From Anaeromassilibacillus sp. An200 (lineage in GTDB: Bacteria; Bacillota; Clostridia; Oscillospirales; Acutalibacteraceae), in contig NZ_NFJU01000014.1 in NCBI RefSeq assembly GCF_002160025.1, positions 1-64,000 of the forward strand: a stretch of 64,000 nt of DNA, written 5' to 3'. The notes beneath the pieces are model-generated. The model searched no databases. It had not been told where the DNA came from and saw only the letters and a program-made list of their open reading frames with translations. A program made the translations under genes and the position numbers. Positions 1 to 15,618 of the stretch are shown here, one piece after another; within the stretch, counting starts at the first letter, position 1, and each line of letters opens with the position of its first letter.

Positions 1-110
<110 letters not shown>

Positions 111-157
111 TTCAGTTTTCGCCGGGAGTTTTTTCTGTCTCTCTTGGCGACTCCAAT

Positions 158-186
158 ATATTATCACACCGTTTTGGAAAATGCAA
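158..186 (-). promoter_or_regulatory. Promoter of the 5S rRNA gene
   Basis: On the minus strand there is a TTGCAT box (181-186), a 17-bp spacer and TAATAT (158-163). It lies about 50 bp before the 5S 5' end. The leader between them contains a TCGCC/GGCGA inverted repeat that could serve processing. Sequence match only. Confidence 0.5.
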
Positions 187-271
187 GCCTTTTTTTCAAA
201 TTTTTTAAAAAATTTTTTGATTCCTCAAAAACCCCCGAAATTCGGGCATTTTCCTCTTACTAAATCCCTTT

Positions 272-300
272 TTGACTTTTCTCTCCCCTCCTTTTATAAT
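272..300 (+). promoter_or_regulatory. Promoter of the HAD hydrolase gene
   Basis: TTGACT (272-277), a 17-bp spacer and a perfect TATAAT (295-300). It points at the ATG at 358 and is one of the closest matches to the sigma-A consensus in the window. Confidence 0.65.
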
Positions 301-357
301 GTGAATCAGAAAACAGAGGAACGAGATACGGCACTTGTGTGCAGGAAGGGGACAAAT

Positions 358-1095
358 ATGAAAAAACCGCAGATGATTCTGTTTGACTACGGCCAGACGC
401 TCTGCACCGAACGCTGGGATGACCCGCTGGGCGGATGCCGGGCGGTGCTGAAGGCCGCTGTGGAAAATCCGCGCGGCATCACGCCGGAGCAGCTGGACGC
501 AGCCTTCTGGTCCATGGACACTTCGCTTTTCCGCCTTTCCAAGGATCCGTGGCAGACCGGCCCGGAGCTTTGCTGGCACGCCTTTGCGCGGTCGGTGTTT
601 GAATCGCTGGAGCTGAAATTCTCCATCGGCTATCAGGAGCTGGAGGAGCTGTTCTGGTATGAGCGCACGGAGCCGACGGTGGCGGTGGACTACGTGCCGG
701 AGCTTCTGGATTTCCTGAAACAGGAGGGGATCCGCACGGGCGTGGTGAGCAACCTGTGCTTCAATGAGAAAACGCTGTGCAAGCGGATCAATAAATGCCT
801 GCCCAATCACGCGTTTGAGTTCATCATGGTGTCGAGCGAATATGCGTTCCGCAAGCCGATGCCGCAGTTTTACCGCCTGGCGCTGACGAAGGCGCATCTG
901 GAACCCGGAGACGTGTGGTTCTGCGGGGACAACGCCGTCTGCGATGTGGACGGCCCGCAGGCCATCGGCATCCAGGGGATCTGGTTCACCGGCGCGATGC
1001 TCAACCCCGAAAGCCGGCGGCTGAGCCCGCAGAGCGAGGGCCACTGGGAGATCCAGGACTGGCGCGAGCTGCAAAGGATGCTGGAACAGTGCTGA
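358..1095 (+). CDS. HAD-family hydrolase
   Basis: 245-residue cytoplasmic protein of the haloacid dehalogenase superfamily; substrate unknown, probably a phosphorylated metabolite. Motif I is FDYGQTL near residue 9, so the nucleophile Asp is present, but the second Asp of the common DxDxT is a Gly. Motif II is the Ser of VVSNLCF, motif III the Lys of RKPMPQFY and motif IV CGDNAVCDVDG. The ATG at 358 is chosen because GGAAGGGG precedes it and it follows the promoter at 272-300; the frame stays open upstream to 181 but that stretch is low-complexity and AT-rich. It is a single gene, separated from ychF by about 170 bp. It lacks the second Asp expected of beta-phosphoglucomutase. Confidence 0.85.
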   Translation: MKKPQMILFDYGQTLCTERWDDPLGGCRAVLKAAVENPRGITPEQLDAAFWSMDTSLFRLSKDPWQTGPELCWHAFARSVFESLELKFSIGYQELEELFWYERTEPTVAVDYVPELLDFLKQEGIRTGVVSNLCFNEKTLCKRINKCLPNHAFEFIMVSSEYAFRKPMPQFYRLALTKAHLEPGDVWFCGDNAVCDVDGPQAIGIQGIWFTGAMLNPESRRLSPQSEGHWEIQDWRELQRMLEQC

Positions 1096-1125
1096 AGCAT
1101 CCGCTCCCTGAAACCGCTCTTTTCC

Positions 1126-1154
1126 TTGTGAAAAGTCTCCGGGTGTGGTATACT
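1126..1154 (+). promoter_or_regulatory. Original promoter of ychF, now separated from the gene
   Basis: TTGTGA (1126-1131), a 17-bp spacer and TATACT (1149-1154). Before integration this promoter would have read through the 42-bp site into ychF. It now reads into the left end of the element and meets the terminator at 1482-1525. Confidence 0.55.
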
Positions 1155-1237
1155 GATCCCATTGCACCGGCTTTCTGCCGCCGCGGGGCCTTCCTGCGCG
1201 CACACGGCGCAATTTTCCCCCGCCGGGGTGACACCGC

Positions 1238-1279
1238 CATTTTTTAAGGAGAAGTGAGAATACATGAAATTAGGTATCG
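1238..1279. repeat. attL, left copy of the 42-bp attachment repeat
   Basis: Identical over 42 bp to 13358-13399; bases on both sides differ. It holds TTAAGGAG, the ychF ATG and 13 further coding bases. The left flank is chromosomal, the right flank is element DNA. Confidence 0.93.
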
Positions 1280-1338
1280 GCGTTCAAACGCCGGATTTCA
1301 TATCTCCATACCTCTCTATAAACGCCGCCAAAGCCTGA
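1264..1338 (+). pseudogene. Decoy 5' remnant of ychF fused to element DNA
   Basis: The att repeat leaves a copy of the ychF ribosome binding site and start codon behind its native promoter. The frame reads five ychF residues (MKLGI), then 19 residues of element sequence, then TGA. The 24-residue product has no recognisable function; the ORF is a by-product of integration. Confidence 0.75.
1278..1291. repeat. Inverted repeat at the left element edge
   Basis: GGCGTT, two bases, AACGCC, starting at the last bases of attL. It could be part of an integrase or excisionase binding region. Inference only. Confidence 0.35.
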
Positions 1339-1400
1339 TACAGCGCGGTTTTACGCAAAACCAACCAAATTATAACTTCATATTTCTCTATGCAGTCCCA

Positions 1401-1427
1401 TGCGGAAATGGCGTAAAAATGGCGTAG
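1401..1427. repeat. Left subterminal 27-bp repeat, probable integrase arm site
   Basis: Matches 13291-13317 in the same orientation at 25 of 27 positions and itself contains GGCGTA twice. Its position inside attL and the partner inside attR fit arm-type sites bound by the N-terminal domain of a Tn916-like integrase. Confidence 0.6.
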
Positions 1428-1481
1428 AGAAATCGGCAGATTTGCAGATGAAGAAGAGCACTACTACTTTGAGAAAGAACA

Positions 1482-1525
1482 AAGATGAGCACGGCCTATA
1501 CAAACGGGCCGTGCTCATCTTTTTT
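1482..1525. terminator. Strong terminator at the left end of the element
   Basis: A perfect 15-bp stem (1482-1496 with 1507-1521), 10-base loop and a run of T on the plus strand. It lies downstream of the leftward cargo genes and also faces transcription entering from the old ychF promoter, so it can insulate both sides. Confidence 0.85.
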
Positions 1526-1547
1526 ATACGGTCAAACGGTTCCGTGC

Positions 1548-1979
1548 TTACTTGTCATCGCTATTAGCGGGATTTTGACGAAAATCCTCTTGAACGCCTT
1601 CGTTCAGATCAAAGCACATGGTTTTTGCATCAGCAACCCAGAAGCCGCGAACGCGGTACCGCTTGCCCGGAACCCAATCCTCGCCCGTGGCGGCGCGGAG
1701 CGGTTCCAGCAAATTTTTGCTGGAAATCGTCACAACGCCCTTCTGTTCACCCCGCGGCTTGGAGAACTTAAAGCCCTTCGGCTCACTGCTCTTGCACATA
1801 CGGATTGCAAACACCTTTGCCTTGGCATCCAGCAGGCACAGCACATAAGCGGGATAACCCATATCCTCCAACACCTTCTTGCTGAAGGTAACGCCGCTCT
1901 GGTTGAGGTACATATCCGGGTAAGCGTTGATGTTGGAGTCAATCGTTTCAAAATTCAGAGAAGAAAAATCAAAATTCAT
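1548..1979 (-). CDS. Hypothetical protein, last gene of the cargo strand
   Basis: 143-residue soluble protein that I do not recognise. The start at 1979 is chosen for the AAAGGA element about 8 bases upstream; a longer reading from 2024 lacks one and overlaps the recombinase. It follows the serine recombinase by 13 bp, so the two are probably co-translated, and the terminator at 1482-1525 closes the transcript. There are no membrane segments and no obvious catalytic motif; the tail ends in a polar DEF..NPANSDDK stretch. The coupling suggests a partner or accessory of the recombinase, but this is inference from position only. Confidence 0.75.
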   Translation of the reverse strand: MNFDFSSLNFETIDSNINAYPDMYLNQSGVTFSKKVLEDMGYPAYVLCLLDAKAKVFAIRMCKSSEPKGFKFSKPRGEQKGVVTISSKNLLEPLRAATGEDWVPGKRYRVRGFWVADAKTMCFDLNEGVQEDFRQNPANSDDK

Positions 1980-1992
1980 TGGTAAAATCCTT

Positions 1993-3195
1993 TCATTTCG
2001 TATTATCTTGTGTGTCATCGACAATTTTCATAAATTCCTGCCGTTCAGCAGGAGACCACCGGGAATCCAGAATCAAATACCCTTTGAACAGGCCATCTTT
2101 GACGCGGTGAGCGACAAAGCGGTTGCTCAGGAAACGCAGTTTCGCCTTATGGGGTGAAGTGTGCCGCTCAGACAACAGCTTTTGCACTTTCAGCCAGTCC
2201 TCTTTTTTGATAATTGCTGTATGGTGATTTTCCTTGAAGTACATATTCAGGTCTGTGTTTTTCACAGACTTGTGGGTGCGGAAATCCTTGGTGTAGGTTT
2301 TCTGCATCAAGGCATCACCACAGTATTTTTCGTTTCGGAGGATGCTGCGGACGGTACCGGCAGACCAGCTATCGTTGCCCATAGGGGATTTGATCCCCTG
2401 TTCGGTCAGTGCAACCGCAATCTCTGACGGCGATGCTCCTTCCAGACAGCTTTCGTAGATGTACTCAACAATCCTTGCCTCGGTCGGCTCAATCACCAGA
2501 CGGCCAAAGTGGTCGCGGTAGAATCCCAGAGTATTCTGTACAGAGAATTTGTAAATCCCCTCAGCCATACGCCAGCGAATACCCGCTTTGATGACCTCGC
2601 TTTTCTGCTGGGACTCCATTTCTGCCAGCGCGGACAGAAGAACGATTAACAGATTGTTCTTTCCATCGCCCGTGTAGGTGATGTGCTCCGTCTCAAATTC
2701 CACCGAGACAGGAGGATTCAGCGCAGAAAGAACATTTAGGTTGTCCAGTATGTCTACAATATTCCGGCCAAAGCGGCTGATGCTCTTGGTAAGGATCAGA
2801 TCAATTTTTCCGTCCACTGCATCGGCAATCATTTTTTGAAAACCAAGGCGCTTTTTGACGGTCGTGGCGCTGATGCCCTCGTCCTGATAGATTTCTACCA
2901 GCTCCCAGTCGGGATTACCTTCAATCCGCTGGGTAAAATGCCGGACCTGCATATCGAAACTGCCAACCTGTTCTTCTTCCTGTGTGCTGACACGGCAATA
3001 TGCCGCAACACGCAGTTTGGGGCGCTCTTGCTGCACTTCCTGCAACTTCTTGGGCAGAATCACAATAACGCCGTTGCTGCGCTGATTCTCCGCAATCTCG
3101 TCCTGCATGAGTTTGCGCCGCTGTTCCCTGCGCTCGGCACGGCTGCTAAACTGACGGGCCGATTCTATCTTCTTGGGATCAAGCGGTTTCGCCAT
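1993..3195 (-). CDS. Serine recombinase (resolvase/invertase plus recombinase domain)
   Basis: 400 residues. Residues 1-60 are charged and unusual for the family. A resolvase catalytic domain follows, with AAYCRVST (Ser at about 70) and LTKSISRFGRN, then a DNA-binding 'recombinase' domain with WSAGTVRSILRNEKYCGD. It cuts and rejoins DNA through a phosphoserine link. The GGAGG 9 bases before the ATG supports the start, which overlaps a short upstream ORF. At about 400 residues it is shorter than large phage serine integrases and lacks most of their long C-terminal region. The tyrosine integrase next to attR is the likelier enzyme for this element, so this one may act on the left module or be cargo from another element. 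Confidence 0.88.
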   Translation of the reverse strand: MAKPLDPKKIESARQFSSRAERREQRRKLMQDEIAENQRSNGVIVILPKKLQEVQQERPKLRVAAYCRVSTQEEEQVGSFDMQVRHFTQRIEGNPDWELVEIYQDEGISATTVKKRLGFQKMIADAVDGKIDLILTKSISRFGRNIVDILDNLNVLSALNPPVSVEFETEHITYTGDGKNNLLIVLLSALAEMESQQKSEVIKAGIRWRMAEGIYKFSVQNTLGFYRDHFGRLVIEPTEARIVEYIYESCLEGASPSEIAVALTEQGIKSPMGNDSWSAGTVRSILRNEKYCGDALMQKTYTKDFRTHKSVKNTDLNMYFKENHHTAIIKKEDWLKVQKLLSERHTSPHKAKLRFLSNRFVAHRVKDGLFKGYLILDSRWSPAERQEFMKIVDDTQDNTK

Positions 3196-3238
3196 ATCCT
3201 GCCTCCATCGAATTTACAGCCTTTTTCCCGTGCTGCAT
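3179..3238 (-). CDS. Possible 19-residue leader peptide of the serine recombinase
   Basis: ATG at 3238 is preceded by AAAGGAGG at a good distance; the frame ends 17 bases inside the recombinase gene. Such an overlap is typical of translational coupling. The peptide is basic and unrecognised. Confidence 0.35.
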   Translation of the reverse strand: MQHGKKAVNSMEAGYGETA

Positions 3239-3276
3239 GGGTATGCCACCTCCTTTGCGCGAATTTGTCTTTTCAC
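3214..3276 (-). CDS. Possible 20-residue upstream ORF with GTG start
   Basis: GTG at 3276 follows GGGAGGCG by about seven bases. The frame overlaps the start of the 19-residue ORF at 3238 and ends before the recombinase. Together they make a chain of overlapping short frames with separate ribosome binding sites. Confidence 0.3.
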   Translation of the reverse strand: MKRQIRAKEVAYPCSTGKRL

Positions 3277-3310
3277 CTGTATCGCCTCCCTGTGCGTTTA
3301 TTTATGACAA

Positions 3311-3376
3311 CCCCTGCGGGACGAATCCCCACAGGGTAGTCACCATAAGAAAAAGGCAGCAGATTTCTCTGCTGCC
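3311..3376 (-). terminator. Two hairpins after res, the second a terminator
   Basis: On the minus strand, GGCAGCAGA..TCTGCTGCC followed by five T (3350-3376) comes right after the res stop codon. A second stem (CCCTGTGGG/CCCGCAGGG, about 3314-3335) follows. They probably separate the R-M transcript from the serine recombinase transcript. Confidence 0.75.
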
Positions 3377-3410
3377 CCATCAGAAACCATGAGATGCGGT
3401 TATTCACTTA

Positions 3411-6014
3411 TTATAGGGCTTCGACCGTCTCCAAAAACTGCCCCATGCTCACCGCTCCGTGCGGCAGATTTTCCTCGTTCTGGAACACCATGTAATAGCG
3501 GTACTGGTTCCCAGCAGCATTCCGCCAAGCCGCACCCAGCTCGATTTTCTCCTGACTGTCATCGTTTTTCAGGTGTTCGCCCTTGGTTTCGGCGAGGATG
3601 ATCTTACCGCTCTTGGTCATAATCATAATGTCCGGATAGTGGTTAAAGTAGCCGTTGATGGCAAAGTCGTGCCGGGCGATATTCCGGTGCCACCACAGCA
3701 CATTGGGAATGGCCGTCAACTGCTTTACCAGCGCCTGTTCCAGCGTGTTCATGTCCTCCTCGGCCTCATAGAGCGACCTTCCGTAAATCGCCGTACTGCT
3801 TATGGGGTGGATTGCCGCAGGCAGGCGGTAATTGGGTTCACACACGATTTTGCCCCGGTCAAGCCAAGTGAAGAAAGTTTCCTTGTAGTGCTGTTCCAGC
3901 AGAGTCTCAATTTTGGCGCGAATTTTTGCGGCGAAGCCCAGCGGGGCTTTTTCCATCGCGGCAAGCTGCTCCCGATCCATCCCATCCACAATGAGATTGA
4001 CATAGACGCGCAAGTCGCCGCCATCCACCATGTTCAGCTTGTCCAACTGGTGGATCATCATTTCTTTACATTGGCGCACCCGGCTCTCAGGCGGCAAGCT
4101 GCTGAAATGCTCCTTGAAATACCGCTGGTCGGCAGCTTCCATCTGGTAAGCCCTCGGCACACTGCGGCCAGTCTCCACATCGACTTTGACGATCTCATCG
4201 TCCGCTGCGGTAAAATCAATGTCGTATGCCTTGCCTTTCAGGGTAAAACCGTCGGCAAGCTGTTCCTTGCTCAACAGCACCTTGTCCCCATCGGTAAACA
4301 GGGATTGCGGAATCACCTGGAAAAACTGCGGGATCAGCAGCCCATCCGCGCTCTCCCGATACTGGGGAATCATACGGAATGTATTCACCTTGTCTCGCAC
4401 CTCCCACGGCAGAGCGGCGGCAAATGGGTCGTTGTCTGCGCCCTGCACCGCCTGATTGTATGCGTCGCCCGCCTGCTGGGCCTCGGCAAGCATACTGTCC
4501 GCTTTTGGGGCGGATTCCGGCGAATTTTCGCTCTCTCTGCGCCGTTGCAGCTCCGCCCCGATGGATTTCCCGTCCAGCTCGGCAAAATCCTCCTGTGGGG
4601 CTTCTGGCTCAATAATCGGAAGTTGTTCCGGAACAGAAGCGGGTTTAACCGGTTCTACCGGCTCGGCAAGGCGGTAATCCCTGTCGCTGAAACCGGCGCT
4701 GTTCAGTCCACGGATGATCTGCTGGACCGTATCATTAAAGTCATTGGAGGAAGTCAGCACATAGGACATATTCAAGGACTTTGCCCTGCGCTCGGCGGTG
4801 TAGGGCAGGCGCAGAATGCGCCCTAAAATCTGCTCCACATCCACCTGACTGGTTTTGTTGGCAAGGGAAGCCAGAATATAGGCGAACGGGCAGTCCCAGC
4901 CTTCTTTCAGGGCGTTTACCGTGATGATGTACCGCACCGGGCAATCTGGGGACAGCAAGTCTACATTTTTCAGCTCGTTCACATCGGCGGTACGTATGGC
5001 AATGTGTTCGGCGGGAATCCCGGTGTTCACCAGCTCCGTCCGCAGCTTTTCAAAAGTGGTCGCATCCTCCTTGCCCTTTGGTTGGGCTTGGAACAGGGCG
5101 ATGGGACGGATGTATTTTCCGCCATTCTGATATTCTGCCGCTGCGATTTCTTCCAGCCTGTCCCGCAGGTCGATCGTGTCCATCAGCACCTCGGCCTGAC
5201 TGTCCCGGTTATAGACAATCACCGGCAGCTTGACCATGTGCTCCGCTTTGAGCTGCACCGCATCCACATAGGAGATGATGTTGCTGCGCTTCTTGGGGGT
5301 GGCGGTCAAATCCAGCACAAAGCAGGGGTTGAAATTGGCGAGCATTTCAATGCTTAGCTCCGACCGGGCGTGATGGCTCTCGTCCACAATCACCAGCGGG
5401 TTGAGCTGGTTGATGACCTGAAACAGCGCCGTCTCGTCCGCTTTCTCGATTGGATTTTCCGGCGTGCCCAACACCTTGGCAAAGGCGGCAAGGTTGCTGT
5501 TCTCCTGATAGGCTTTCAAGCCCTCCTTGCCCCGGCCACGGAAGGAATCGTAGGACAGCACCATAATGGAGAGCTGTTCGGTGACGGCGGTGGGGTTGAA
5601 ATTCTGCCCGTTCAAAAGCTCCTGCTTGGTGTAGACTTCCACCCGCCCGCCAAAATCCACATCGATTTTCTGCCGGTAGGGATGGCGTGGGTCTTTCAGG
5701 GTTTTGACTGTCTGTGTCAAAATTGCGTCAGATGGCACCAGCCACACCACCGCTTTTGTCTTGGTGAACGGCAGCGCGTCAAACACGGGCCGGACGGCGT
5801 TGCAGGCGAGAAAGGTTTTCCCGCCGCCGGTGGGCACCTTGAAGCAGAGATTGGGAACGCCGGGCAATACATCCTGATAGCTACCCAGCGTAGGCGCGCT
5901 CTTCTCCTGCCAAAAGAGCCGGAAGGAAGCACTATAGTCTCTGGTTTCGCCCAGCAGTTCCAGATAGCGGTTCAGATCGGCGATAACCTGCCGCTGATAG
6001 GTTTTCAGTTCCAT
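3411..6014 (-). CDS. res: Type III restriction enzyme, Res subunit
   Basis: 867-residue helicase-nuclease. An SF2 helicase core shows PTGGGKT (Walker A, 61-67), VDESHH (about 210), LTATP, and RILRLP (motif VI). The C terminus has a PD-(D/E)xK nuclease: PDIMIMT near 794 and AETKG near 809-811. With Mod it forms the ATP-dependent complex that cuts DNA after sensing unmethylated sites in head-to-head orientation. The start at 6014 is supported by TAAGGAGG; the frame upstream of it overlaps the end of mod and is not needed. It begins 13 bp after mod, the usual mod-res order. Length is in the family range and all motifs look intact, so the enzyme is probably active. Confidence 0.95.
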   Translation of the reverse strand: MELKTYQRQVIADLNRYLELLGETRDYSASFRLFWQEKSAPTLGSYQDVLPGVPNLCFKVPTGGGKTFLACNAVRPVFDALPFTKTKAVVWLVPSDAILTQTVKTLKDPRHPYRQKIDVDFGGRVEVYTKQELLNGQNFNPTAVTEQLSIMVLSYDSFRGRGKEGLKAYQENSNLAAFAKVLGTPENPIEKADETALFQVINQLNPLVIVDESHHARSELSIEMLANFNPCFVLDLTATPKKRSNIISYVDAVQLKAEHMVKLPVIVYNRDSQAEVLMDTIDLRDRLEEIAAAEYQNGGKYIRPIALFQAQPKGKEDATTFEKLRTELVNTGIPAEHIAIRTADVNELKNVDLLSPDCPVRYIITVNALKEGWDCPFAYILASLANKTSQVDVEQILGRILRLPYTAERRAKSLNMSYVLTSSNDFNDTVQQIIRGLNSAGFSDRDYRLAEPVEPVKPASVPEQLPIIEPEAPQEDFAELDGKSIGAELQRRRESENSPESAPKADSMLAEAQQAGDAYNQAVQGADNDPFAAALPWEVRDKVNTFRMIPQYRESADGLLIPQFFQVIPQSLFTDGDKVLLSKEQLADGFTLKGKAYDIDFTAADDEIVKVDVETGRSVPRAYQMEAADQRYFKEHFSSLPPESRVRQCKEMMIHQLDKLNMVDGGDLRVYVNLIVDGMDREQLAAMEKAPLGFAAKIRAKIETLLEQHYKETFFTWLDRGKIVCEPNYRLPAAIHPISSTAIYGRSLYEAEEDMNTLEQALVKQLTAIPNVLWWHRNIARHDFAINGYFNHYPDIMIMTKSGKIILAETKGEHLKNDDSQEKIELGAAWRNAAGNQYRYYMVFQNEENLPHGAVSMGQFLETVEAL

Positions 6015-6027
6015 GTATGTCGCCTCC

Positions 6028-7665
6028 TTACAACCGGCTGATGTCTCTGGGAATTTTCTTGAAAACAATCCCCATCTGCGACAGCTTATCGTCATCGATG
6101 GAGCAGCGGTCGGCGTAAATCACGGTGCCGCCTGCTTTTTCGGTGACGGCAGCCAAGAAATCATAGTCCAGCACCGTGATCCGCTGCGGTTCGTAGTAGA
6201 AGTAATAGCCGGTATCGTTGTGCTTACCGAGGTAATAGAGATTCTCCCCAGCGGCGGGCGTATAGGGCGTTTTCGTCTCCATGAACCAGATGTACTCCCG
6301 GATTTTTTCGGGCGCAACAGCTTCGTTCAGGTTTTCGCCGATGAGCAGCGGCTCGCCCAGCTCGTAGTAGCTGAAATTGCCGCTGGTGCCCTCCACTGCG
6401 CTCTTACCCTCGCCGTAGCCTCGGATGACCCGGCGTACCCGCTCGGCGGTGATGCTGTCGGCGTAGTCCATCATCTCCACCAAGATGAATTTGCGGTGCC
6501 CGCCGTCTGCCTTGTTCATGTTAAGGACGGCGTGGGCGGTGGTGCCAGAGCCTGCAAAGGAATCAAGAATAATCGAATCTTTTGCCGTAGCAATTTGGAT
6601 AATTCGCTGAACTAAACGAACAGGTTTAGGATAATCAAATGTAGCCGTTTTCCCAAAAATAGTTGTAATTTCCTTAGTTGCCTCTTGCGTATGGCCAACC
6701 TCGGTGTTAGGCCACCAAGTCCATATGTTACGACCTTCGCGTTCAGACAAATATGTTTTTTTCCTTGGAACTCCTTTTCCATCTGCACCAAACCAAATTC
6801 GACCAGCGGCTATTTCTTCGTCCATTCGCGCTTTTGTAAATCGCCAACATAGATTGTCCGGCAAGTCAATAATACGCCCACTTGGTGTAATCATTGTGTA
6901 AAACTGATCTTTTGTCCCGTGGCCAGCTTGCGCTGTACAGTCAGTTGAAACCCATGGGCCACGAGGATCATTATCGGGATTTTTATATTTTCTTTTATCC
7001 GCATCAGAAAAACTAAGCTGATTAATGGAATTATCGGCCATATTAATGTTTTTTAGATATGCACAAATATACTCGTGTCCAGTACTTACTTTCCTGCGAG
7101 CATCTGGAGAAGTACGCTTTTGCCAAACCATTTGTGCCAGAAAATTTCTTGCACCAAATATTTCATCACAAATCATACGCAATAGCATTTGAGCATTGTC
7201 ATCAATGCTGATAAAAATAACTCCATCCTCCGCCAGCAGCTTTTGCAGCAGTTTCAGCCGGGGGTACATCATGCACAGCCACTTGTCGTGGCGGGTCAGG
7301 TCCTCGCCCTCTTTGCCCACCACTTCGCCCAGCCATTTTCTGATTTTCGGGTCGTTTACATTGTCGTTGTACACCCAGCCCTCGTTGCCGGTGTTGTAGG
7401 GCGGATCAATGTAGATGCACTTCACCCGTCCCTCATACCGGGGCAGCAGGGCCTTCAGCGCGTCCAGATTATCCCCGTGGATGATCATGTTCTCACTGCC
7501 GTTGCGCCCCAGGGCGGTTTCTCTTGCGCCTTCGGCGCAATTCACCTTCTCCCCGGCGTGCTGGCCGTTTTCGTCAAAGCTGTATTGCCGGTCAAGCACC
7601 CGGAACGGCACTTCCTGATGGTGGTTGATGACTTTCTCTTTTCCAATCCACTCCAATGTCGGCAT
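6028..7665 (-). CDS. mod: Type III DNA methyltransferase, Mod subunit
   Basis: 545-residue adenine-N6 methyltransferase of the beta group: the catalytic DPPYNTG (87-93) precedes the AdoMet-binding FAGSGTT (370-376). Mod supplies sequence recognition for methylation and for the Res complex. Residues about 150-370, the target recognition part, are encoded by DNA (about 6555-7220) that is clearly richer in A and T than both flanks. That is a sign of exchange of the recognition module. The start at 7665 follows GGGAGGAACGACC. The product ends 13 bp before res. The site recognised cannot be predicted from sequence alone. Confidence 0.95.
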   Translation of the reverse strand: MPTLEWIGKEKVINHHQEVPFRVLDRQYSFDENGQHAGEKVNCAEGARETALGRNGSENMIIHGDNLDALKALLPRYEGRVKCIYIDPPYNTGNEGWVYNDNVNDPKIRKWLGEVVGKEGEDLTRHDKWLCMMYPRLKLLQKLLAEDGVIFISIDDNAQMLLRMICDEIFGARNFLAQMVWQKRTSPDARRKVSTGHEYICAYLKNINMADNSINQLSFSDADKRKYKNPDNDPRGPWVSTDCTAQAGHGTKDQFYTMITPSGRIIDLPDNLCWRFTKARMDEEIAAGRIWFGADGKGVPRKKTYLSEREGRNIWTWWPNTEVGHTQEATKEITTIFGKTATFDYPKPVRLVQRIIQIATAKDSIILDSFAGSGTTAHAVLNMNKADGGHRKFILVEMMDYADSITAERVRRVIRGYGEGKSAVEGTSGNFSYYELGEPLLIGENLNEAVAPEKIREYIWFMETKTPYTPAAGENLYYLGKHNDTGYYFYYEPQRITVLDYDFLAAVTEKAGGTVIYADRCSIDDDKLSQMGIVFKKIPRDISRL

Positions 7666-7784
7666 GGTCGTTCCTCCCTATTGCTGCTATCGTAAAAGAC
7701 CTTTCCCGTATCGGGAGGGCCGTATTTTGTCCAATCGAACCCGAACCGTGTTGCGGGCATCTTAATTTCGAGTGCAGTTCACGG

Positions 7785-8609
7785 TCAGCCAACCAGCGTT
7801 TTCAGTACATCCATAATCTGGCTGTACTCAATGTGGGCGGCATAGGCAAACTGCTTGCGGTACTTTTCCCACATGGCTTTGAGTTCCCGGCTGCTCTCGA
7901 TGTTGTGCAGAATGGCGGACACATCCGCAATCTGATGAGCTGTGCCGCGATGGGTTGCGGTGGCGTTTAACGCTTCGGCGAATACCGCCTTATCAAATTT
8001 CTGTGTGGTTGCCAGAATGTAAGCATCGTAAAAATCTCTCGGTCGGGTGTTGAACACGCCGCGCCGCAGGATGGTCTCCACCTTTTCCGCCATGACGGTT
8101 TCGATGTTGTACGCCCATAGCTCGTAGGATTTCTCGTCATCGAAAATTTCTGAAAACCGGTACTGCACCGCGTGGGGCGTAATAGCGTCCCCGGTGGACA
8201 CATCAATGCTCAGCGGGGTAATCAGCGTATCAAAATGGGCGTTCAGCATCACACGGTAGCCGCCGTAAATGTCATCCTCCCGGATAGGCAAGATTTTCCT
8301 CACCTTAAAGGTCACGCCGTCGTCAAAGGAAACGGCGGCCACCTGCTCCAATGCGTTGCGGATAGCCTCCGGGGTTAGGGGCAGATTTTTCAGCGTTGTG
8401 TCCAAATCCATCGTCGCCCGATTGTCCAGCCCCACGATGGCCGCCACCAGCATCCCGCCTTTCAACACAAACTTGTCCTTGTACTCCGATGCCGCAAGCC
8501 GGACAAGCAGGCGCTCGAACATATAGTTCTGCAAAATGACCTGTGCCGGGATATTTTTCTGCTTGGCGATGTTGCGGATTTTTGCTTTCAGACTCATGGC
8601 ATTGCTCAC
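7785..8609 (-). CDS. abiEii: AbiEii/AbiGii-type nucleotidyltransferase toxin
   Basis: 274 residues, DUF1814-type nucleotidyltransferase. Visible motifs: VLKGGMLV (49-56), the acidic DLD (68-70) that would bind metal and nucleotide, a Lys in MAEKVETI (about 176) and RPRDFYD (189-195). Members of this family modify tRNA ends or similar substrates and stop growth during phage infection. The start is a GTG at 8609 with GGAGG upstream; its first four bases overlap the stop of the partner gene (GTGA), the classic layout of a type IV toxin-antitoxin pair. The 119 bp between it and mod hold no convincing gene. Confidence 0.92.
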   Translation of the reverse strand: MSNAMSLKAKIRNIAKQKNIPAQVILQNYMFERLLVRLAASEYKDKFVLKGGMLVAAIVGLDNRATMDLDTTLKNLPLTPEAIRNALEQVAAVSFDDGVTFKVRKILPIREDDIYGGYRVMLNAHFDTLITPLSIDVSTGDAITPHAVQYRFSEIFDDEKSYELWAYNIETVMAEKVETILRRGVFNTRPRDFYDAYILATTQKFDKAVFAEALNATATHRGTAHQIADVSAILHNIESSRELKAMWEKYRKQFAYAAHIEYSQIMDVLKTLVG

Positions 8610-9199
8610 AGTAGTACCTCCAAATATTGGCGCAGTACTCCCGACACCCTCATCTGATGGGCATACTCATCCAGCCGGTTCAAGTCCTTCTTCGGGCTGG
8701 CGGCGTACTGTTTCAGCGCCGATAAAAATGTCTCCGTCCCAATCTTGTTACGGCTGCGGATTACATCGCAGATGGTGCGCTCCAAATCGTAGCAGGGAAC
8801 GGGATTTCCAGCGGGAGTTTCCAGCATTGTTTTGCCCAGCTCGAACAGCTCCGGCTTGATGTAGTACACCTTGCACTCCGCCTTGATGGCCGCAGACGGA
8901 ATGCAGCCAGAGGGCGCAGTTACGGTGTGCTCAAAGGGTGTCCGGTCGGAAATTCCATGAAGAAACAGCGCCGTCTCGTGGGAAAAAATAATGTTTTTCG
9001 ACCGGCGGCTGATGGACAGTAATTCGTCCTGCATATCCTCCGGGAGAACATATTGCCCCTTGACGATGCGGTGAATCTTTTCTGCTTTGCACAGCTTATA
9101 GAGCATCGCTTTGGAAATGCCGTACTGCGCCGCCGTTTTCGTTTCGATGATGCCGCCGTTTTTATTCGCAATCGCGGCCAGTTCCGCCATATAGTCCAT
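8606..9199 (-). CDS. abiEi: AbiEi-type antitoxin, winged helix
   Basis: 197 residues. The N terminus (about residues 5-60) is a winged helix-turn-helix like that of AbiEi, with YGISKAMLYKLCKAEKI as the recognition region; the rest matches the AbiEi C-terminal antitoxin domain in layout (SHETALFLHGISDR, YDLERTICDV). In characterised systems it represses its own operon and counteracts AbiEii without binding it directly. The start at 9199 is preferred to 9220 because GAGGTGAGCGG precedes it and it fits the promoter at 9230-9258. It is the first gene of the cargo strand; translation is coupled to the toxin. Confidence 0.9.
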   Translation of the reverse strand: MDYMAELAAIANKNGGIIETKTAAQYGISKAMLYKLCKAEKIHRIVKGQYVLPEDMQDELLSISRRSKNIIFSHETALFLHGISDRTPFEHTVTAPSGCIPSAAIKAECKVYYIKPELFELGKTMLETPAGNPVPCYDLERTICDVIRSRNKIGTETFLSALKQYAASPKKDLNRLDEYAHQMRVSGVLRQYLEVLL

Positions 9200-9229
9200 C
9201 CGCTCACCTCGCAATAACAACCTGATAAT

Positions 9230-9258
9230 AGTATATCCAAAATCACGATGATAGTCAA
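9230..9258 (-). promoter_or_regulatory. Promoter of the AbiE/type III R-M cargo strand
   Basis: On the minus strand TTGACT (9253-9258), 17 bp, TATACT (9230-9235), about 30 bp before the abiEi start. Confidence 0.65.
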
Positions 9259-9260
9259 CG

Positions 9261-9274
9261 GTTGCATTGGCAAC
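9261..9274. promoter_or_regulatory. Inverted repeat abutting the AbiE promoter, possible operator
   Basis: GTTGC, four bases, GCAAC directly upstream of the -35 box. Known AbiEi proteins bind inverted repeats at their promoters, so this is a candidate autoregulation site. Confidence 0.35.
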
Positions 9275-9338
9275 ATCAAGATAAAATTGAAGCCGATACT
9301 ATGATGTAAGTCAATTCTCGTTACGAGTTAACAGGGGT

Positions 9339-9396
9339 TTGGGTGCTCCCAACAAGAACCAATGAGCAGAACGCCCAACAGGCAGGATTGCTCATT
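9339..9396. other. Candidate transfer origin (oriT) region
   Basis: Between the divergent gene sets and upstream of mobC lie two inverted repeats: TTGGG/CCCAA (9339-9352) and AATGAGCA/TGCTCATT (9361-9368 with 9389-9396). MobC-dependent origins commonly sit here. No nick site can be assigned. Confidence 0.35.
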
Positions 9397-9461
9397 TCGC
9401 CGGTGTGTACGGACAGCGGCTGTGCTTGCTGTTCTCTGAAATTTCATATCCGCAGATTACG

Positions 9462-9502
9462 ATGCTTCCGCTTTTTCCAAGGCCGGGAGCATTTTTATTT
9501 TT
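9462..9502 (+). terminator. Terminator-like hairpin upstream of mobC
   Basis: ATGCTTCC (9462-9469) pairs with GGGAGCAT (9485-9492), followed by TTTTATTTTT. It would end a short transcript from the 9300-9460 region, which could be a leader or small RNA. Confidence 0.5.
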
Positions 9503-9531
9503 AAGCAGACCCCTGTTTTTCTCGGAGAAAA

Positions 9532-9605
9532 TGTCCGTTGTAAATTGAAAAGTTTTTTGGGGAGATCCCCCCCAATTCACAAAAAATTGTCCGTTGTAGT
9601 TTGAA
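9532..9605 (+). repeat. Pair of 18-bp direct repeats before mobC
   Basis: TGTCCGTTGTA..TTGAA occurs at 9532-9549 and 9588-9605 with 16 of 18 matches. Between them is a short GGGG/CCCC hairpin. Possible binding sites for MobC or a replication protein. Confidence 0.5.
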
Positions 9606-9620
9606 GGAGACGAATATCCA

Positions 9621-9950
9621 ATGGCTGAACGCACAAGGCCGATCCGCATCGAGTTCTGCGTCACCGAGCAGGAGCGTCAGCTTATCCAAAGCAAGATGGC
9701 TCAGCTCGGTACTAAGAACATGGGCGCATATCTCAGAAAAATGGCAATCGACGGCTACATCATCAAAGTGGATTACACCCAGCAGAAAAAGCTGGCCGCA
9801 GCCGTCAGCCGGGTTGCCAGCAATATCAACCAGATTTGCCGCCGGATCAACAGCACCGGGCATCTCTACGCTGAGGATGTTGAGGAGCTGAAAGAACGGC
9901 AAGTCGAGATTTGGTCGCTGCTCAAAGAAAACCAGCGAAAGGAATTGTAA
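9621..9950 (+). CDS. mobC: MobC-like relaxosome protein
   Basis: 109 residues. The N-terminal RPIRIEFCVTEQERQLI resembles a ribbon-helix-helix strand, and the middle carries the MobC pattern (MGAYLRKMAIDGYIIKVDY, then a helix with ASNINQICRRINSTG). Such proteins bind oriT and help the relaxase nick DNA. GAAGGAGA lies about nine bases upstream of the ATG. A relaxase gene would normally follow; here a 58-residue protein and replication genes do, so mobilisation would need an enzyme supplied in trans. Confidence 0.85.
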   Translation: MAERTRPIRIEFCVTEQERQLIQSKMAQLGTKNMGAYLRKMAIDGYIIKVDYTQQKKLAAAVSRVASNINQICRRINSTGHLYAEDVEELKERQVEIWSLLKENQRKEL

Positions 9951-9965
9951 TGACAGGAGGCCGTT

Positions 9966-10142
9966 ATGCCGCGTATGAGTAAAAAGCGAAAAGAAGAATG
10001 GGCGTTCTTTCTGAATGACCGCAGGCGCATCGCCTATAACGCCCTTTGCCGCAGGTGCGTTCACAACTGCAAGCAAAGTTTCCGTGCAATGGTGATTGTC
10101 TGCCCGCATTACCACTCCAAACGATCCCACCGCCCGCCTTAA
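9966..10142 (+). CDS. Small Cys/His-rich protein
   Basis: 58 residues, start at 9966 behind CAGGAGG. Very basic, with CRRCVHNC in the middle and CPHYH later, which could bind a metal ion. It is 15 bp after mobC and probably on the same transcript. The function is unknown; it may be a DNA-binding accessory of the element. Confidence 0.65.
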   Translation: MPRMSKKRKEEWAFFLNDRRRIAYNALCRRCVHNCKQSFRAMVIVCPHYHSKRSHRPP

Positions 10143-10211
10143 TTTCCCTTTGCCGGAAAAAGGAAGTGATGCACCATCTACTACAAAACCAACACCCCGC
10201 TGCCGCCTTTC

Positions 10212-10886
10212 GTGCCGTTGCCTCGGTTTATCCTTCGGGGAGAATACTCAATCAATGCCAAACTGCTCTATGCGCTGCTGCTGGGACGCACACAGCTCTC
10301 TCAGAAATCCGGCTGGGTTTCGGAGGATGGGGATGTCTATGTGATCTACACCATCCGGCAGATGGCAAATGACCTGAACCGGAGCGAGCGGACGGTCAAG
10401 GCCGCGCTGGCCGAGCTGGAAAATGCGGGCCTTATCACCCGTGTCCGGCAAGGCTGGAACCGGGCAAATCGTATTTTCCTGCAACTACCCGATGAGGTGC
10501 AGCTTTCTTCCCGTCCAGAGGGCAAGTTCTGCCCAATGGATGGGCTGGAATCTTCCCCTTGTATGGGGCAAAATTTGCCCATAAGTAAGAAAGAGAAGAA
10601 GAAAACAGATTCCAGTCAGAATAACAGGAGGGAGAACGCCCGCCGCTGTTTTGGACAGTATCAGAATGTTTTTCTTTTGGACAGGGAATTGGCCGATCTG
10701 CAATCCACATATCCCGGCCAATACGAGGATTACATCAACCGGCTGTCGGCCTATATGGCATCCAGCGGAAAGCACTATGCCAACCATTACGCTACAATCC
10801 GCAAGTGGCTGGACGAGGACAGCAAACCGAAGCCCGGTAAAAATTACGACTATACAGAGACCTATGAGGAAGGAGAATGTCTGTGA
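10212..10886 (+). CDS. RepA-like replication initiator, start uncertain
   Basis: At least 224 residues. The N-terminal part (FILRGEYSINAKLLYALLLGRTQLSQKSGW, then VYVIYTIRQMANDLNRSERTVKAAL) matches the winged-helix domain of plasmid/ICE replication initiator A proteins, and a helical C-terminal domain follows after a polar linker. GTG at 10212 is only the first legal start in frame and has no ribosome binding site. The frame upstream still reads family-like sequence (TIYYKTNTPLPPFVPLPRF) back to a TGA at 10167. A well-placed ATG at 10169 behind AAGGAAGTG is one base out of frame. A one-base change near 10172 would explain this. The 3' end overlaps the next gene by 10 bp. Confidence 0.8.
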   Translation: MPLPRFILRGEYSINAKLLYALLLGRTQLSQKSGWVSEDGDVYVIYTIRQMANDLNRSERTVKAALAELENAGLITRVRQGWNRANRIFLQLPDEVQLSSRPEGKFCPMDGLESSPCMGQNLPISKKEKKKTDSSQNNRRENARRCFGQYQNVFLLDRELADLQSTYPGQYEDYINRLSAYMASSGKHYANHYATIRKWLDEDSKPKPGKNYDYTETYEEGECL

Positions 10887-11740
10887 ATGTGAACCCGATT
10901 ATGGCTGCAATCGTTGAGGCAGCAGAGACCCTAAACACCGCCCCGGATGATTACATCAACCCGGATGACGGGCTGAAATACTGCGGCAAGTGCCACACGC
11001 CCAAGGAAGCCTATTTTCCCGAACAGTACCGCAAAAACGGGTTGGACAAGCACCCGATTGACTGCAAATGCGCCGCTGAGGAACGGGCGCGGCGCGAAGC
11101 GGAGCAACGGGAGCTGGAACGGCTGAACCGGATTGCCATGCTCCGCTCCGAAGCGTTCCGGGATATTCCCGCCGCCAGATGGCGGTTTGAAAATGCCGAG
11201 GTGATGACTCCACAGCTTGTTAAAGCGAGAAGATATTCCGAAAACTGGGATAGTTTCCACCAAGATGGAACCGGGCTGCTCTTGTTTGGGAATGTTGGCA
11301 CCGGGAAATCCTATGCAGCGGGCTGCATTGCCAACGCCCTGATTGAAAGAATGGTTTCCGTCCTATTTGCCGGGCTGTCCGATGTGGTGAACCGGATGCA
11401 GGGCAATTTCGGCGCTGACCGGGATGCCTACATGAAAATGCTGATGCGCCCGGAGCTGCTGATTTTGGATGACCTGGGCGCGGAGCGTAACACCAGCTTC
11501 GGCAGGGAGCGCGTGTTTGATGTGGTCAATAAGCGTTTGTTGACCGGCAAACCGATGATCGTCACCACCAACATCCCACTCTCTGTGATGCAGAAAGCTG
11601 CCGATCTGGATGAGCTCCGTATCTATGACAGGGTTTTGGAGGTCTGCATCCCCATCCAGTTTAACGGTGAGAATTTCCGAAAGGGCAATGCCGCGGAAAA
11701 TGTGAAGCGGGCAGCAAGAATTTTGAATCAGGAAAATTGA
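10877..11740 (+). CDS. DnaC/IstB-like ATP-binding protein
   Basis: 287 residues of the AAA+ helicase-loader family. An N-terminal zinc-like cluster (YCGKCHTP ... DCKCAAEE) precedes the ATPase core with GNVGTGKS (Walker A) and LILDDLGAE (Walker B), plus VTTNIPL as sensor region. It probably loads the host replicative helicase at the element's origin together with the initiator encoded just upstream, which it overlaps by 10 bp. AAGGAGAATG gives the ribosome binding site. Similar gene pairs are common in clostridial integrative elements that replicate after excision. Confidence 0.88.
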   Translation: MSVNVNPIMAAIVEAAETLNTAPDDYINPDDGLKYCGKCHTPKEAYFPEQYRKNGLDKHPIDCKCAAEERARREAEQRELERLNRIAMLRSEAFRDIPAARWRFENAEVMTPQLVKARRYSENWDSFHQDGTGLLLFGNVGTGKSYAAGCIANALIERMVSVLFAGLSDVVNRMQGNFGADRDAYMKMLMRPELLILDDLGAERNTSFGRERVFDVVNKRLLTGKPMIVTTNIPLSVMQKAADLDELRIYDRVLEVCIPIQFNGENFRKGNAAENVKRAARILNQEN

Positions 11741-11771
11741 CGAACTTCTATTCTACGAAAGGGGCAATCAA

Positions 11772-11978
11772 ATGGAAAATTCCATCGGCAAGGTGCCGAT
11801 CCACCTGAAAATGACACTCACGGCAAAGGAAGCCGCCGAATACAGCAATATCGGAATCAATAAAATCGACAGTATGCTGCGTTCTCCAAACTGCCCATTC
11901 GTACTTTTTGTGGGCAGCAAGAAATTAGTGAAGCGCAAAGAATTTGAACAGTACATCAGTCAGGTACTCGTGATCTGA
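11772..11978 (+). CDS. xis: Excisionase, Tn916 Xis-like
   Basis: 68 residues. LTAKEAAEYSNIGINKIDSMLRS is a MerR-like winged-helix start, followed by the strand FVLFVGSKKLVKRKEFEQYI, the usual pattern of Tn916-type excisionases. It bends DNA at the element ends and biases the integrase towards excision. GAAAGGGG precedes the ATG. It lies 110 bp before the integrase with a hairpin in between. Confidence 0.88.
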   Translation: MENSIGKVPIHLKMTLTAKEAAEYSNIGINKIDSMLRSPNCPFVLFVGSKKLVKRKEFEQYISQVLVI

Positions 11979-12014
11979 CATTGCATTTGAAAAATTCGCG
12001 GAGAAGCCTTGAGG

Positions 12015-12062
12015 AAAAGAGCACCATGCGCTATACTATATAGTGTAGTAGTGTGCTCTTTT
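12015..12062. terminator. Hairpin between xis and int
   Basis: AAAAGAGCAC (12015-12024) pairs with GTGCTCTTTT (12053-12062), with a further AT-rich palindrome inside. The T-rich 3' arm makes it a plausible terminator or attenuator limiting read-through from xis into int. Confidence 0.6.
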
Positions 12063-12088
12063 CTTCTCTGCGGGAAAGGAGCTCATCC

Positions 12089-13270
12089 ATGGGAAAGAAT
12101 TTCAAGGGAAAAGACTGCGGTAAGGGTATCTACCAAAGAAAGGACGGATTGTATAGCGCACGATTTGTTGATAAGGCCGGGAAGCGGCATGAGAAGTATT
12201 TTCAGACGCTGCCCGAAGCGCGAAACTGGATTGAGGACGCAAAGTACGCCGATAAGCATGACGATGTGTTTGTCGCTACCGATACGACAGTGGATGAATG
12301 GTTTGAATTCTGGATTGAAAATATTGTCGGGGATCTGGCTCCTAACACGCTCAGAAATTACCGGGAACGCTATGTCCGCAATATTCAGCCGGTCATCGGG
12401 AAGATGCTGATTGCCAATGTAAAACCGATGCACTGCAAAAAGGTGTTTATCCAGATGGATGCTGATTACGCAGGTTCCACCATTCGTCAGGCATACATCA
12501 CGATGGGGACAATGTTTAAGGCTGCGAAGATGAACGACCTGATTGCAAAGCACCCCATGGATGGCGTTCGGTTTACAAAGCCTGTTCGCGCTGTGGATGA
12601 TATTCACTATCTGACGCGGGAGGAACAGCGCCTATTTCTTGAAACAGCACGGCGCTCCCACAATTACAACCAGTATGCGCTCATCCTTGAGACCGGATTG
12701 CGCACCGGAGAAATGATTGGCTTAACATGGGATGCCATCGACTTTGAGCGCCGGACGCTTACGGTGAACAAGACCTTGGAGTTTCGTCACGCACAGAAAG
12801 TTTGGCGTGCCGGTCCTCCCAAAACTCAGCAGAGCTATCGCACTATTCCTTTGACGGATAAAGCGTATGACATTCTGAAAGAGGTGTGGGATAGCCGGAG
12901 CAGCAGAAAAGAATCCCCCCTGCTGTCACAAACGCTGGAATACATGGATAGGCGCACCGGCGTTACTTCCCGGCTTGTGATGCGGGATCTGGTCTTTATC
13001 AACTGGCGCACAGGGGAACCGGCGAAAAACAGTTCCTATGATACCCACCTCTATAAGCTTTGCGATGAAGCGGGGATCAACCGCTTTTGTATGCACGCTC
13101 TGCGCCATACCTACGCAACCCGTGCGATTGAAAGCGGAATGCAGCCGAAAGTGCTGCAAAAGCTGCTGGGGCACGCCAGCATCAAAACCACAATGGATCG
13201 GTATGTCCATGTAACCGATGAAACGCTGGATCAGGCAGTCAAGCAATTTCAACTCAGCAGCGTATGTTGA
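12089..13270 (+). CDS. int: Tyrosine integrase, Tn916 family
   Basis: 393 residues. An AP2-like arm-binding N terminus ([26 protein letters not shown]) is followed by a SAM-like core-binding domain and the catalytic domain: Arg205 in ETGLRTGE, His336 and Arg339 in HALRHTY, His362 in LLGHAS and Tyr372 in DRYVH. It would join attB and attP and, with Xis, reverse the reaction. ATG at 12089 is chosen for the AAAGGAG seven bases upstream. It ends 88 bp before attR, the usual place for the element's own integrase. No promoter of its own is obvious. Confidence 0.95.
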
Positions 13271-13290
13271 TATAACTTAATACAAGTCAA

Positions 13291-13317
13291 TGCGTAATTG
13301 GCGTAAAAATGGCGTAG
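13291..13317. repeat. Right subterminal 27-bp repeat, probable integrase arm site
   Basis: Partner of 1401-1427 (25 of 27 identical, same orientation), lying between int and attR. Confidence 0.6.
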
Positions 13318-13357
13318 CCGCCAAAACGTCAAAGTGCGAAAAACCTTGTAAATACGG

Positions 13358-13399
13358 CATTTTTTAAGGAGAAGTGAGAATACATGAAATTAGGTATCG
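13358..13399. repeat. attR, right copy of the 42-bp attachment repeat
   Basis: Identical to 1238-1279. The ychF start codon in use (13384) and its ribosome binding site are inside it; chromosomal ychF sequence continues to the right. Confidence 0.93.
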
Positions 13400-14478
13400 T
13401 CGGTCTGCCCAACGTGGGCAAAAGCACGCTGTTCAACGCCATCACAAACGCGGGGGCGCAGGCGGCAAACTATCCGTTCTGCACCATCGAGCCGAATGTC
13501 GGCGTCGTGGCTGTGCCGGACAAGCGCCTGGACAAGCTGGCTGAGATGTACCACCCGGAGAAGTACACGCCCGCGACGATTGAGTTTGTGGATATCGCCG
13601 GGCTGGTGCGCGGCGCGTCCAAGGGAGAGGGGCTTGGCAACAAGTTCCTTGCGAACATCCGCGAGGTGGATGCGATTGTGCATGTCGTGCGCTGCTTTGT
13701 GAACGACGATATCGTGCATGTCGAGGGCAGCATCGACCCGGCCCGCGACATCGAGACGATCAACCTCGAGCTGATCCTCTCGGATATGGAGATCCTCGAT
13801 CGCCGCATCGACAAGACGCAGAAGATGCTCAAGGCCGACAAGAAATACCAGGCGGAGCTGGACTTCTTCAAGCGCGTGCGCGAGGCCCTCGACGCGGGCA
13901 AATCGGCGCGCAGTGTGGAGTGCACGCCGGAGGAGGCGGAGCTGCTCTCCACCGTCTCGCTGCTGACGAACAAGCCTGTCATTTACGCGGCGAACATGAC
14001 GGAGTCGGATTTCAAGGACGGCGTGGAGAACAATCCGTATTTCCAGGCGGTGAAGAAGATAGCGGACGAGGAGCATGCCGGTGTGCTGCCGATTTCCGCG
14101 GAGATTGAAGCGGAGATCTCCGGGCTCGAGCCGGAGGAAAAGGAACTGTTTCTCGCGGATATGGGCCTTTCCGAGTCCGGTCTGGATCGCCTGATCAACG
14201 CCTGCTACAGCCTGCTGGGCCTGATCTCCTATCTGACCGCCGGGCAGCCCGAGGTGCGCGCGTGGACGATCACGAAGGGCACGAAGGCGCCCCAGGCCGC
14301 CGGTAAGATCCATTCGGATTTTGAGCGCGGCTTCATCCGCGCCGAGGTCATCGCGTTCGACGATCTCATGGCCTGCGGCTCCATGACGGCCGCCCGCGAG
14401 AAGGGACTTGTCCGCAGCGAGGGCAAGGAGTACGTCATGCAGGACGGCGACATCGTTCTCTTCCGCTTCAACGTCTGA
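13384..14478 (+). CDS. ychF: YchF/OLA1 family ATPase, integration target
   Basis: 364 residues, the full family length. GLPNVGKST is the P-loop, DIAGLVRGASKGEGLG follows, and the C-terminal TGS region ends in MQDGDIVLFRFNV. YchF is a ribosome-associated P-loop protein of the Obg family that prefers ATP and is linked to stress responses. AAGGAG lies about eight bases before the ATG and is contributed by the att repeat. The protein sequence is unchanged by the insertion, but the gene has lost its original promoter at 1126-1154. The 88 bp between int and attR show no strong promoter, so expression may now rely on read-through from int or a weak element promoter. Confidence 0.96.
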   Translation: MKLGIVGLPNVGKSTLFNAITNAGAQAANYPFCTIEPNVGVVAVPDKRLDKLAEMYHPEKYTPATIEFVDIAGLVRGASKGEGLGNKFLANIREVDAIVHVVRCFVNDDIVHVEGSIDPARDIETINLELILSDMEILDRRIDKTQKMLKADKKYQAELDFFKRVREALDAGKSARSVECTPEEAELLSTVSLLTNKPVIYAANMTESDFKDGVENNPYFQAVKKIADEEHAGVLPISAEIEAEISGLEPEEKELFLADMGLSESGLDRLINACYSLLGLISYLTAGQPEVRAWTITKGTKAPQAAGKIHSDFERGFIRAEVIAFDDLMACGSMTAAREKGLVRSEGKEYVMQDGDIVLFRFNV

Positions 14479-14552
14479 GCAGACTGAGTCTGCGCCTGCG
14501 GCGGGCATGACGCGCACGCCGCGTCCCGCGGCGAACCATGCAGAAAAACGAC

Positions 14553-14590
14553 GGCCCTCATGCGATCTTGCGTCGCATGAGGGCCTTGTT
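14553..14590. terminator. Terminator after ychF
   Basis: A perfect 13-bp stem GGCCCTCATGCGA/TCGCATGAGGGCC (14553-14565 with 14573-14585), followed by TTGTTGTG. It lies between the convergent ychF and the next minus-strand gene. Confidence 0.75.
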
Positions 14591-14653
14591 GTGTATCCCG
14601 CGCTGTTCACACGGAGAGATACGGCAGGTTGGCTGTGATTTTGGGCCTGGTTC

Positions 14654-15268
14654 TTACATGGCTCCGCCAAAGCCGCCGCCTGTGCCGCCGGAACCACTGC
14701 CGGAGGAGACGTCCCCTCCCCCGCCGCCCGCAGGCGCGCTGGGGGCGGCTGGTGCGCTCGGTGCGCTCGGCGCGCTGGATTGTGTGCCGCCGCTGCCCGA
14801 AACATCCGGCGAACCTTCGGACTCCTGCACCTTCTCGGCGGAGGATTCCTCCTCTTCCTTTTCCAGCACGCTCTTGCAGTCCTCCGGATCCTCCTTGGGC
14901 TTGCGCATGGCCATCGCCAGCGTGTACATCCGCGGATTGTTGCGAAGCAGGAAACGCAGATCCTCCGGCGGGACGTTGTCGCCCTCGCGCAGGCTTGCGG
15001 CGATCTTGGCGCACTGCCGCAGAGTCTTCAGCTCCTTTTTCATTGCCTCAATCTGCGGATCCTTTTGCTGCTGCGGACGCATCAGGGCAATCAGCCCTTT
15101 GGATTTGGCCTTTTCCCTCTCCTTTGCACGCAGCGCGTCCACCACCGCGGCGGAAAGCTCCAGCTTATCCATACGGCTGGTGGAAAAAGAGGAGGAGCGT
15201 CCGGACTTCTCCTGCTTTTCTGTCTGCCGCATTGCCTGCGCGGCTTGCCCAATACGCGAAATCTCCAT
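14654..15268 (-). CDS. Hypothetical protein with Ser/Ala/Pro and Gly-rich tail
   Basis: 204 residues, not recognised. Residues 1-130 are charged and helical (KLELSAAVVDALRAKEREKAKSKG, then a Lys/Glu-rich helix). The rest is low complexity: acidic KEEEESSAEK, repeated SAPSAPSAP, then Gly/Ser ending in GGGFGGAM. No signal peptide or membrane segment. GGAGGAAGAAAA precedes the ATG. A hairpin at 15312-15343 lies in its 5' leader. A disordered regulatory or scaffold role is possible, but nothing in the sequence proves it. Confidence 0.7.
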   Translation of the reverse strand: MEISRIGQAAQAMRQTEKQEKSGRSSSFSTSRMDKLELSAAVVDALRAKEREKAKSKGLIALMRPQQQKDPQIEAMKKELKTLRQCAKIAASLREGDNVPPEDLRFLLRNNPRMYTLAMAMRKPKEDPEDCKSVLEKEEEESSAEKVQESEGSPDVSGSGGTQSSAPSAPSAPAAPSAPAGGGGGDVSSGSGSGGTGGGFGGAM

Positions 15269-15605: not shown

Positions 15606-15618
15606 TATAAACAGAATA

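Follow-up and report, generated by a model that had tools for sequence, protein, structure and literature searches.

The locus analysed here raises the question of how ychF, a conserved gene, is transcribed once a mobile element has entered the chromosome at its start codon. We analysed the window, by which we mean the whole stretch of 64,000 nucleotides, together with related loci. A sequence-only reading of the window had claimed that the insertion strands the native ychF promoter upstream of a short decoy ORF and a strong hairpin, leaves ychF behind the integrase gene without an obvious promoter, and may thereby rewire ychF expression.

The 12.1-kb insertion was bounded by an exact 42-bp direct repeat that the sequence-only reading had not mentioned, with the left copy (attL, + strand) at 1238-1279, comprising the native RBS, the start codon and the codons after it, and the right copy (attR, + strand) at 13358-13399, with an AAGGAG RBS at 13366-13371. 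The exact insertion point was the ychF start codon. Because the repeat includes the RBS, the start codon and the codons that follow, ychF itself (13384-14478, + strand; TIGR00092, E 9.5e-152) remains intact. The insertion has an integrase gene at one of its ends, is flanked by direct repeats and occurs at the same site across independent hosts, which identified it as a site-specific tyrosine-integrase element, of the Tn916-Xis/tyrosine-Int class with type III RM and AbiE cargo. On its minus strand the element encodes a hypothetical protein (1548-1985; no match in Pfam, PADLOC or NCBIfam), a type III restriction subunit whose start is not fixed (3411-6095), a type III DNA methyltransferase (6028-7665), an AbiEii toxin-like nucleotidyltransferase (7785-8609) and an AbiEi antitoxin (8606-9199). 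The plus strand carries, with Pfam matches, genes for a NikA/MobC mobilisation protein (9621-9950), a RepA_N replication initiator-like protein (10212-10886) and an IstB/DnaC-like ATPase (10877-11740), followed by a Tn916-type excisionase (Xis, 11772-11978; PF09035, E 6e-35) and the tyrosine integrase (12089-13270; PF00589, E 1e-30). Two repeats on the plus strand, at 1377-1427 in the left arm and 13267-13317 in the right arm, matched at 76% with an exact 19-bp core and are probable integrase arm sites.

At the left end, the promoter that the earlier reading had placed at 1126-1154 (+ strand) was present as TTGTGA-17-TG-TATACT (9/12 matches plus TG), a grade of which lone matches are not rare (3 found vs 0.9 expected in shuffles). 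We took it to be ychF's own promoter because the congener G152, whose site (L116) is empty, has the same type of promoter before ychF, TTGAGA-17-TG-TATACT, at a similar distance (-10 at -108, compared with -115 in the window). The gene upstream of ychF differs in G152, and the G152 HAD gene sits on another contig. Following insertion, the native promoter points into the left end of the element, with a terminator-like hairpin about 220 bp in (1481-1525, + strand). The hairpin bore out the earlier description, with a 17-bp stem at 1481-1522 followed by a T run (-31.1 kcal/mol, z -9.7; 0/200 shuffles equally good), and was not among the output of a simple terminator scan. Strong, comparably placed hairpins were found within 11 of 12 left ends at z -3.2 or lower, values that are biased low because the best of several positions was picked before scoring, and 4/10 distinct left ends satisfied a stricter terminator rule. 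The left-end hairpin would be expected to halt transcription that starts at the stranded native promoter or, in the circular form, transcription of int.

An integrase search of genome contigs yielded 77 loci, of which 70 were judged; the remainder were three remote loci (below 60%), two without the integrase 3' end and two on contigs that ended too soon. The results showed that ychF was the next gene on the same strand in 67/70 judged loci, at a gap of 84-264 bp (median 116). In the three exceptions (L038, L091 and L105) the right-end leader enters other DNA, which resembles an element left end in L038 and L091; L038 could be attP or a tandem junction. From position 144 onward, L105 shows the element right end, a ATGAAATTAGG match and then non-ychF DNA, and this junction is possibly a secondary site. 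Only two plasmid records carried integrases 60-80% identical to that of the window, and both had ychF next. Among 150 genomes of the same family, the integrase was found in six at E <= 1e-60, a limit that missed partial integrase ends at contig edges (for example in G078), and its coordinates adjoined ychF in 6/6. Judged by record titles, the hosts of the integrase family were mostly gut Clostridia. At seven loci, integrases at least 97% identical to that of the window adjoined ychF genes whose products were 58-93% identical to the window's, and this pairing of near-identical integrases with divergent ychF indicates, from sequence comparison, that the element family has been transferred between genera. 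The window YchF was 99.5% identical to that of Candidatus Caccousia avicola (L109), which makes it probable that the host belongs to that genus. The right end of one element met the left end of another at L161/L162 (G159), L163 (G166), L168 (G156) and L170 (G162), and in G159 an att-like junction followed each of two integrases, which were 69% and 88% identical to that of the window. These junctions suggest tandem arrays before ychF in the four genomes.

Comparison across the family revealed that all DNA 5' of the ychF start codon is element DNA and that the ychF frame and N-terminus are kept (MKLG in 58/58 attR). The attR leader up to the start codon was of the element type, reading AAGGAGATGTAGAGATAT in 16/19 distinct sister right ends and differing from it by one base in two; the nineteenth was that of the window. 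Codon 3, by comparison, was host-dependent, with TTA, CTA or CTT occurring after an identical leader, and import of codons 3-4 by the element was disfavoured for this reason. Left and right ends agree from the ATG on, not before, in L164, and in L159 their agreement around the start codon amounts to (T)ATGAAA. The simplest reading of these junctions is that strand exchange takes place within ATGAAA, the first two codons of ychF. The RBS of the target gene is therefore element-supplied in 18/19 sister leaders, whereas the window has a host-type leader: 13366-13383 in attR equals 1246-1263 in attL, within an identity of 26 bp. The two leaders differ at the four other sites for which both the host left end and attR could be read (L159, L160, L161/L162 and L164), and gene conversion between the ends is a possible explanation for the host-type leader of the window. 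As the host-type RBS is kept at attR, the change in this genome would concern transcription and not the RBS. The idea that elements bring a stronger Shine-Dalgarno sequence was rejected, since AAGGAG was present in 58/58 attR compared with 7/25 native leaders but the predicted energies were alike (p = 0.21). ATGAAATTAGG was in excess at occupied sites (47/58 vs 12/25, p = 0.004, among related sequences), which reads as a target preference.

To compare the DNA in front of ychF in the two states, we scored sigma-A-like sites with one simple weighted scheme, in which a score of 9 or more was considered strong. In agreement with the sequence-only reading, ychF follows the integrase gene, and none of the sites in 13271-13357 reached the scan threshold for a promoter. 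For the 115 bp preceding the start codon, the mean score was 6.90 (shuffles 7.33) across 58 distinct attR gaps, compared with 8.92 (shuffles 7.64) across 25 native ychF leaders. With 115 bp scored, 0/58 int-ychF gaps and 16/25 native leaders reached at least 9; with 140 bp, the counts were 2/58 and 18/25, respectively. Of the 58 int-ychF gaps, one contained a terminator-like site and 57 had none.

Upstream of int, a near-consensus promoter (P_int, TTGAGG-17-TATACT, 12009-12037, + strand) had a counterpart in 43/43 family members. All 43 distinct int leaders, which are related sequences reduced to 28 once near-identical ones are removed, reached a score of 9 (mean 10.5; shuffles 7.8, with 5% reaching 9); a 17-bp spacer was present in 43/43 and an extended -10 in 35. 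A hairpin across P_int (12012-12065, + strand; z -5.6), with 87.5% of cells pairing, gave a covariation score of 0.497 compared with 0.266 for shuffled alignments (0/500 as high; slid controls <=0.224). Seven pairs showed two-sided change, which is not unusual (shuffles 6.3), and the RNAalifold energy was weak (-1.2 kcal/mol), yet 26/29 single sequences folded with z below -2. We also considered whether P_int had evolved for ychF. Among 20 Tn916-Xis loci examined, nine had an integrase frame by set criteria, four of them ychF elements, and 4/5 of the non-ychF modules likewise scored at least 9. Strong int promoters thus occur in Tn916-Xis modules away from ychF, and the idea that P_int was made for ychF was rejected.

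Judged from sequence, it is likely that attP recombines with attB at the ychF start and that ychF is then transcribed by read-through from P_int, so that its promoter is swapped and not silenced. The tyrosine integrase would recombine attP with attB at the start codon (ATGAAA...), and in the integrated state ychF would be co-transcribed with int from P_int as an int-ychF operon. Since RNA started at P_int would lack the left arm of the P_int hairpin, this hairpin is predicted to end only those transcripts that arrive from xis and to spare those initiated at P_int. Excision would bring the native promoter back in front of ychF, and the left-end hairpin would lie in the path of the int transcript in the circular form. 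Integration would give ychF a different, probably constitutive promoter, with no silencing. The recurrence of the layout in dozens of related bacteria suggests that the integrase promoter drives the host gene. The earlier proposal of rewired expression holds for the source of ychF transcription, which must change on integration because the native promoter is displaced systematically in the integrase family and the gap offers no clear promoter of its own. It may not hold for the level, or for a dependence of ychF on the state of the element, as the mean score of P_int (10.5) compared with native ychF promoters (9.3) means that ychF expression may be near normal in the integrated state.

Transcription independent of int, from a weak ychF promoter of the element's own at the end of int, is unlikely. 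The candidate, TTCAAC-17-TGa-TATAAC at 13248-13276, overlaps the integrase stop, and with the -10 set 100-120 bp before the start codon, 7/25 representative gaps scored at least 8 compared with 3.6% of shuffles. The -10 alone was unenriched (4/25 vs 2.6 expected), however, and the -35 look-alike falls within the conserved last int codons, in a stretch that matches the left arm repeat at 1377-1427 and may for that reason be a protein-binding site.

A still less probable alternative to transcription from P_int is that integration largely silences ychF and excision restores its expression, as proposed for a pneumococcal satellite prophage located upstream of ychF. The available part of PMC6375853 reports lower ychF mRNA in pneumococcus when that element is integrated, and the native promoter is displaced in the window as well; across the clostridial family, however, a strong promoter and almost no terminator lie ahead of ychF, and the RBS and intact start codon were present in 58/58. 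According to the available parts of PMC6375853, PMC8637289 and PMC10383233, the pneumococcal prophage, which lies between dnaN and ychF, resembles the element in the window in its position upstream of ychF, in having an integrase gene that adjoins ychF and in altering the ychF promoter. It differs in its hosts and in the reported drop in ychF mRNA (PMC6375853), and its att site is described as an intergenic 14-bp repeat (26 bp in PMC8637289 and PMC10383233), whereas the att repeat in the window is 42 bp long, of another sequence and located at the start codon.

The chimeric ORF at attL (1264-1338, + strand; MKLGIGVQTPDFISPYLSINAAKA, 24 aa) was found as the earlier reading had described it, and although signals for its expression (promoter, RBS and start codon) are in place, and a DFI-like stretch (loose pattern) is common to 9/12 left ends, a functional peptide is very improbable, given that the chimeras range from 12 to 50 codons across the 12 left ends and that the shared stretch follows conserved left-arm DNA, which is out of frame in L159. 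We therefore regard this decoy ORF as probably an incidental by-product.

The proposed transcription of ychF from P_int can be placed beside other elements that enter the 5' ends of genes, as described in the available parts of the cited papers. IMEVchUSA3 and other dusA-specific elements likewise target a conserved gene at its 5' end, to which they bring new expression signals and a new start region, and dusA stays expressed behind IMEVchUSA3; the host of IMEVchUSA3 is Vibrio and DusA gains a new N-terminus, whereas that of YchF is unaltered here (PMC8409611). SXT/R391 ICEs at prfC are similar in their tyrosine integrase, their insertion into a translation-linked gene at its 5' end, the new promoter and the tandem arrays, but are conjugative, reside in gammaproteobacteria and give the target a new N-terminus (PMC2791158, PMC4489591, PMC8409611). 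Streptococcal ICEs at rbgA, ftsK and ebfC also enter gene 5' ends and keep the N-terminus, and two at rbgA and one at ebfC replace the promoter; their targets and hosts are different, and the remaining elements leave 15-64 bp upstream of the start codon unchanged (PMC4701971). The window shares with the Tn916 family an Xis of PF09035 (Tn916-Xis) followed by a tyrosine integrase, but Tn916 uses many AT-rich sites (PMC3715440), whereas the integrase family of the window was at ychF in 67/70 loci. Among the matches listed for ychF with integration or elements, mostly outside subscription journals, the elements recognised at ychF were pneumococcal, with no report of the clostridial ychF-element family.

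Elements that enter gene 5' ends with new expression signals are thus an already established kind, and the family described here differs from the known cases in its start-codon target, its hosts, which are mostly gut Clostridia, and the predicted use of the int promoter. It appears to land on the start codon of a conserved gene and, by prediction, to lend it the int promoter. Its empty and occupied hosts form a natural collection in which to test the effects of insertion on a translation- and stress-linked ATPase, and they could also show whether an element is stabilised when int is coupled to a host gene. A tentative and rather doubtful extension is that such operon capture is a stabilising strategy, in which P_int is the only promoter of the YchF gene and int transcription comes under host purifying selection. 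If so, silencing or deletion of P_int would cost the host its YchF, YchF dosage would be unequal between the integrated and excised states, and the design would have spread across many genera of gut Clostridia.

Several minor observations concern the rest of the element and its surroundings. No relaxase was recognised with Pfam among the 11 element proteins scanned, in which NikA/MobC is present, and a relaxase was found in the related element L159; the window proteins scanned included no conjugation genes. Rfam at gathering scores over 1-16000 gave, as the only known RNA family, a 5S rRNA gene on the minus strand at the window edge (1-108). A second recombinase, of the serine type (Resolvase + Recombinase in Pfam, 1993-3195, - strand), lies near the left end of this tyrosine-integrase element, and a similar one was present in L162. 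Among the selected proteins scanned, defence cargo was recurrent: both the window and L162 carried type III RM, the window shared AbiE with L160, and L161 had an IetS-like protein. In place of such cargo, L159 encoded a PucR regulator, a transporter of short-chain fatty acids and its relaxase.
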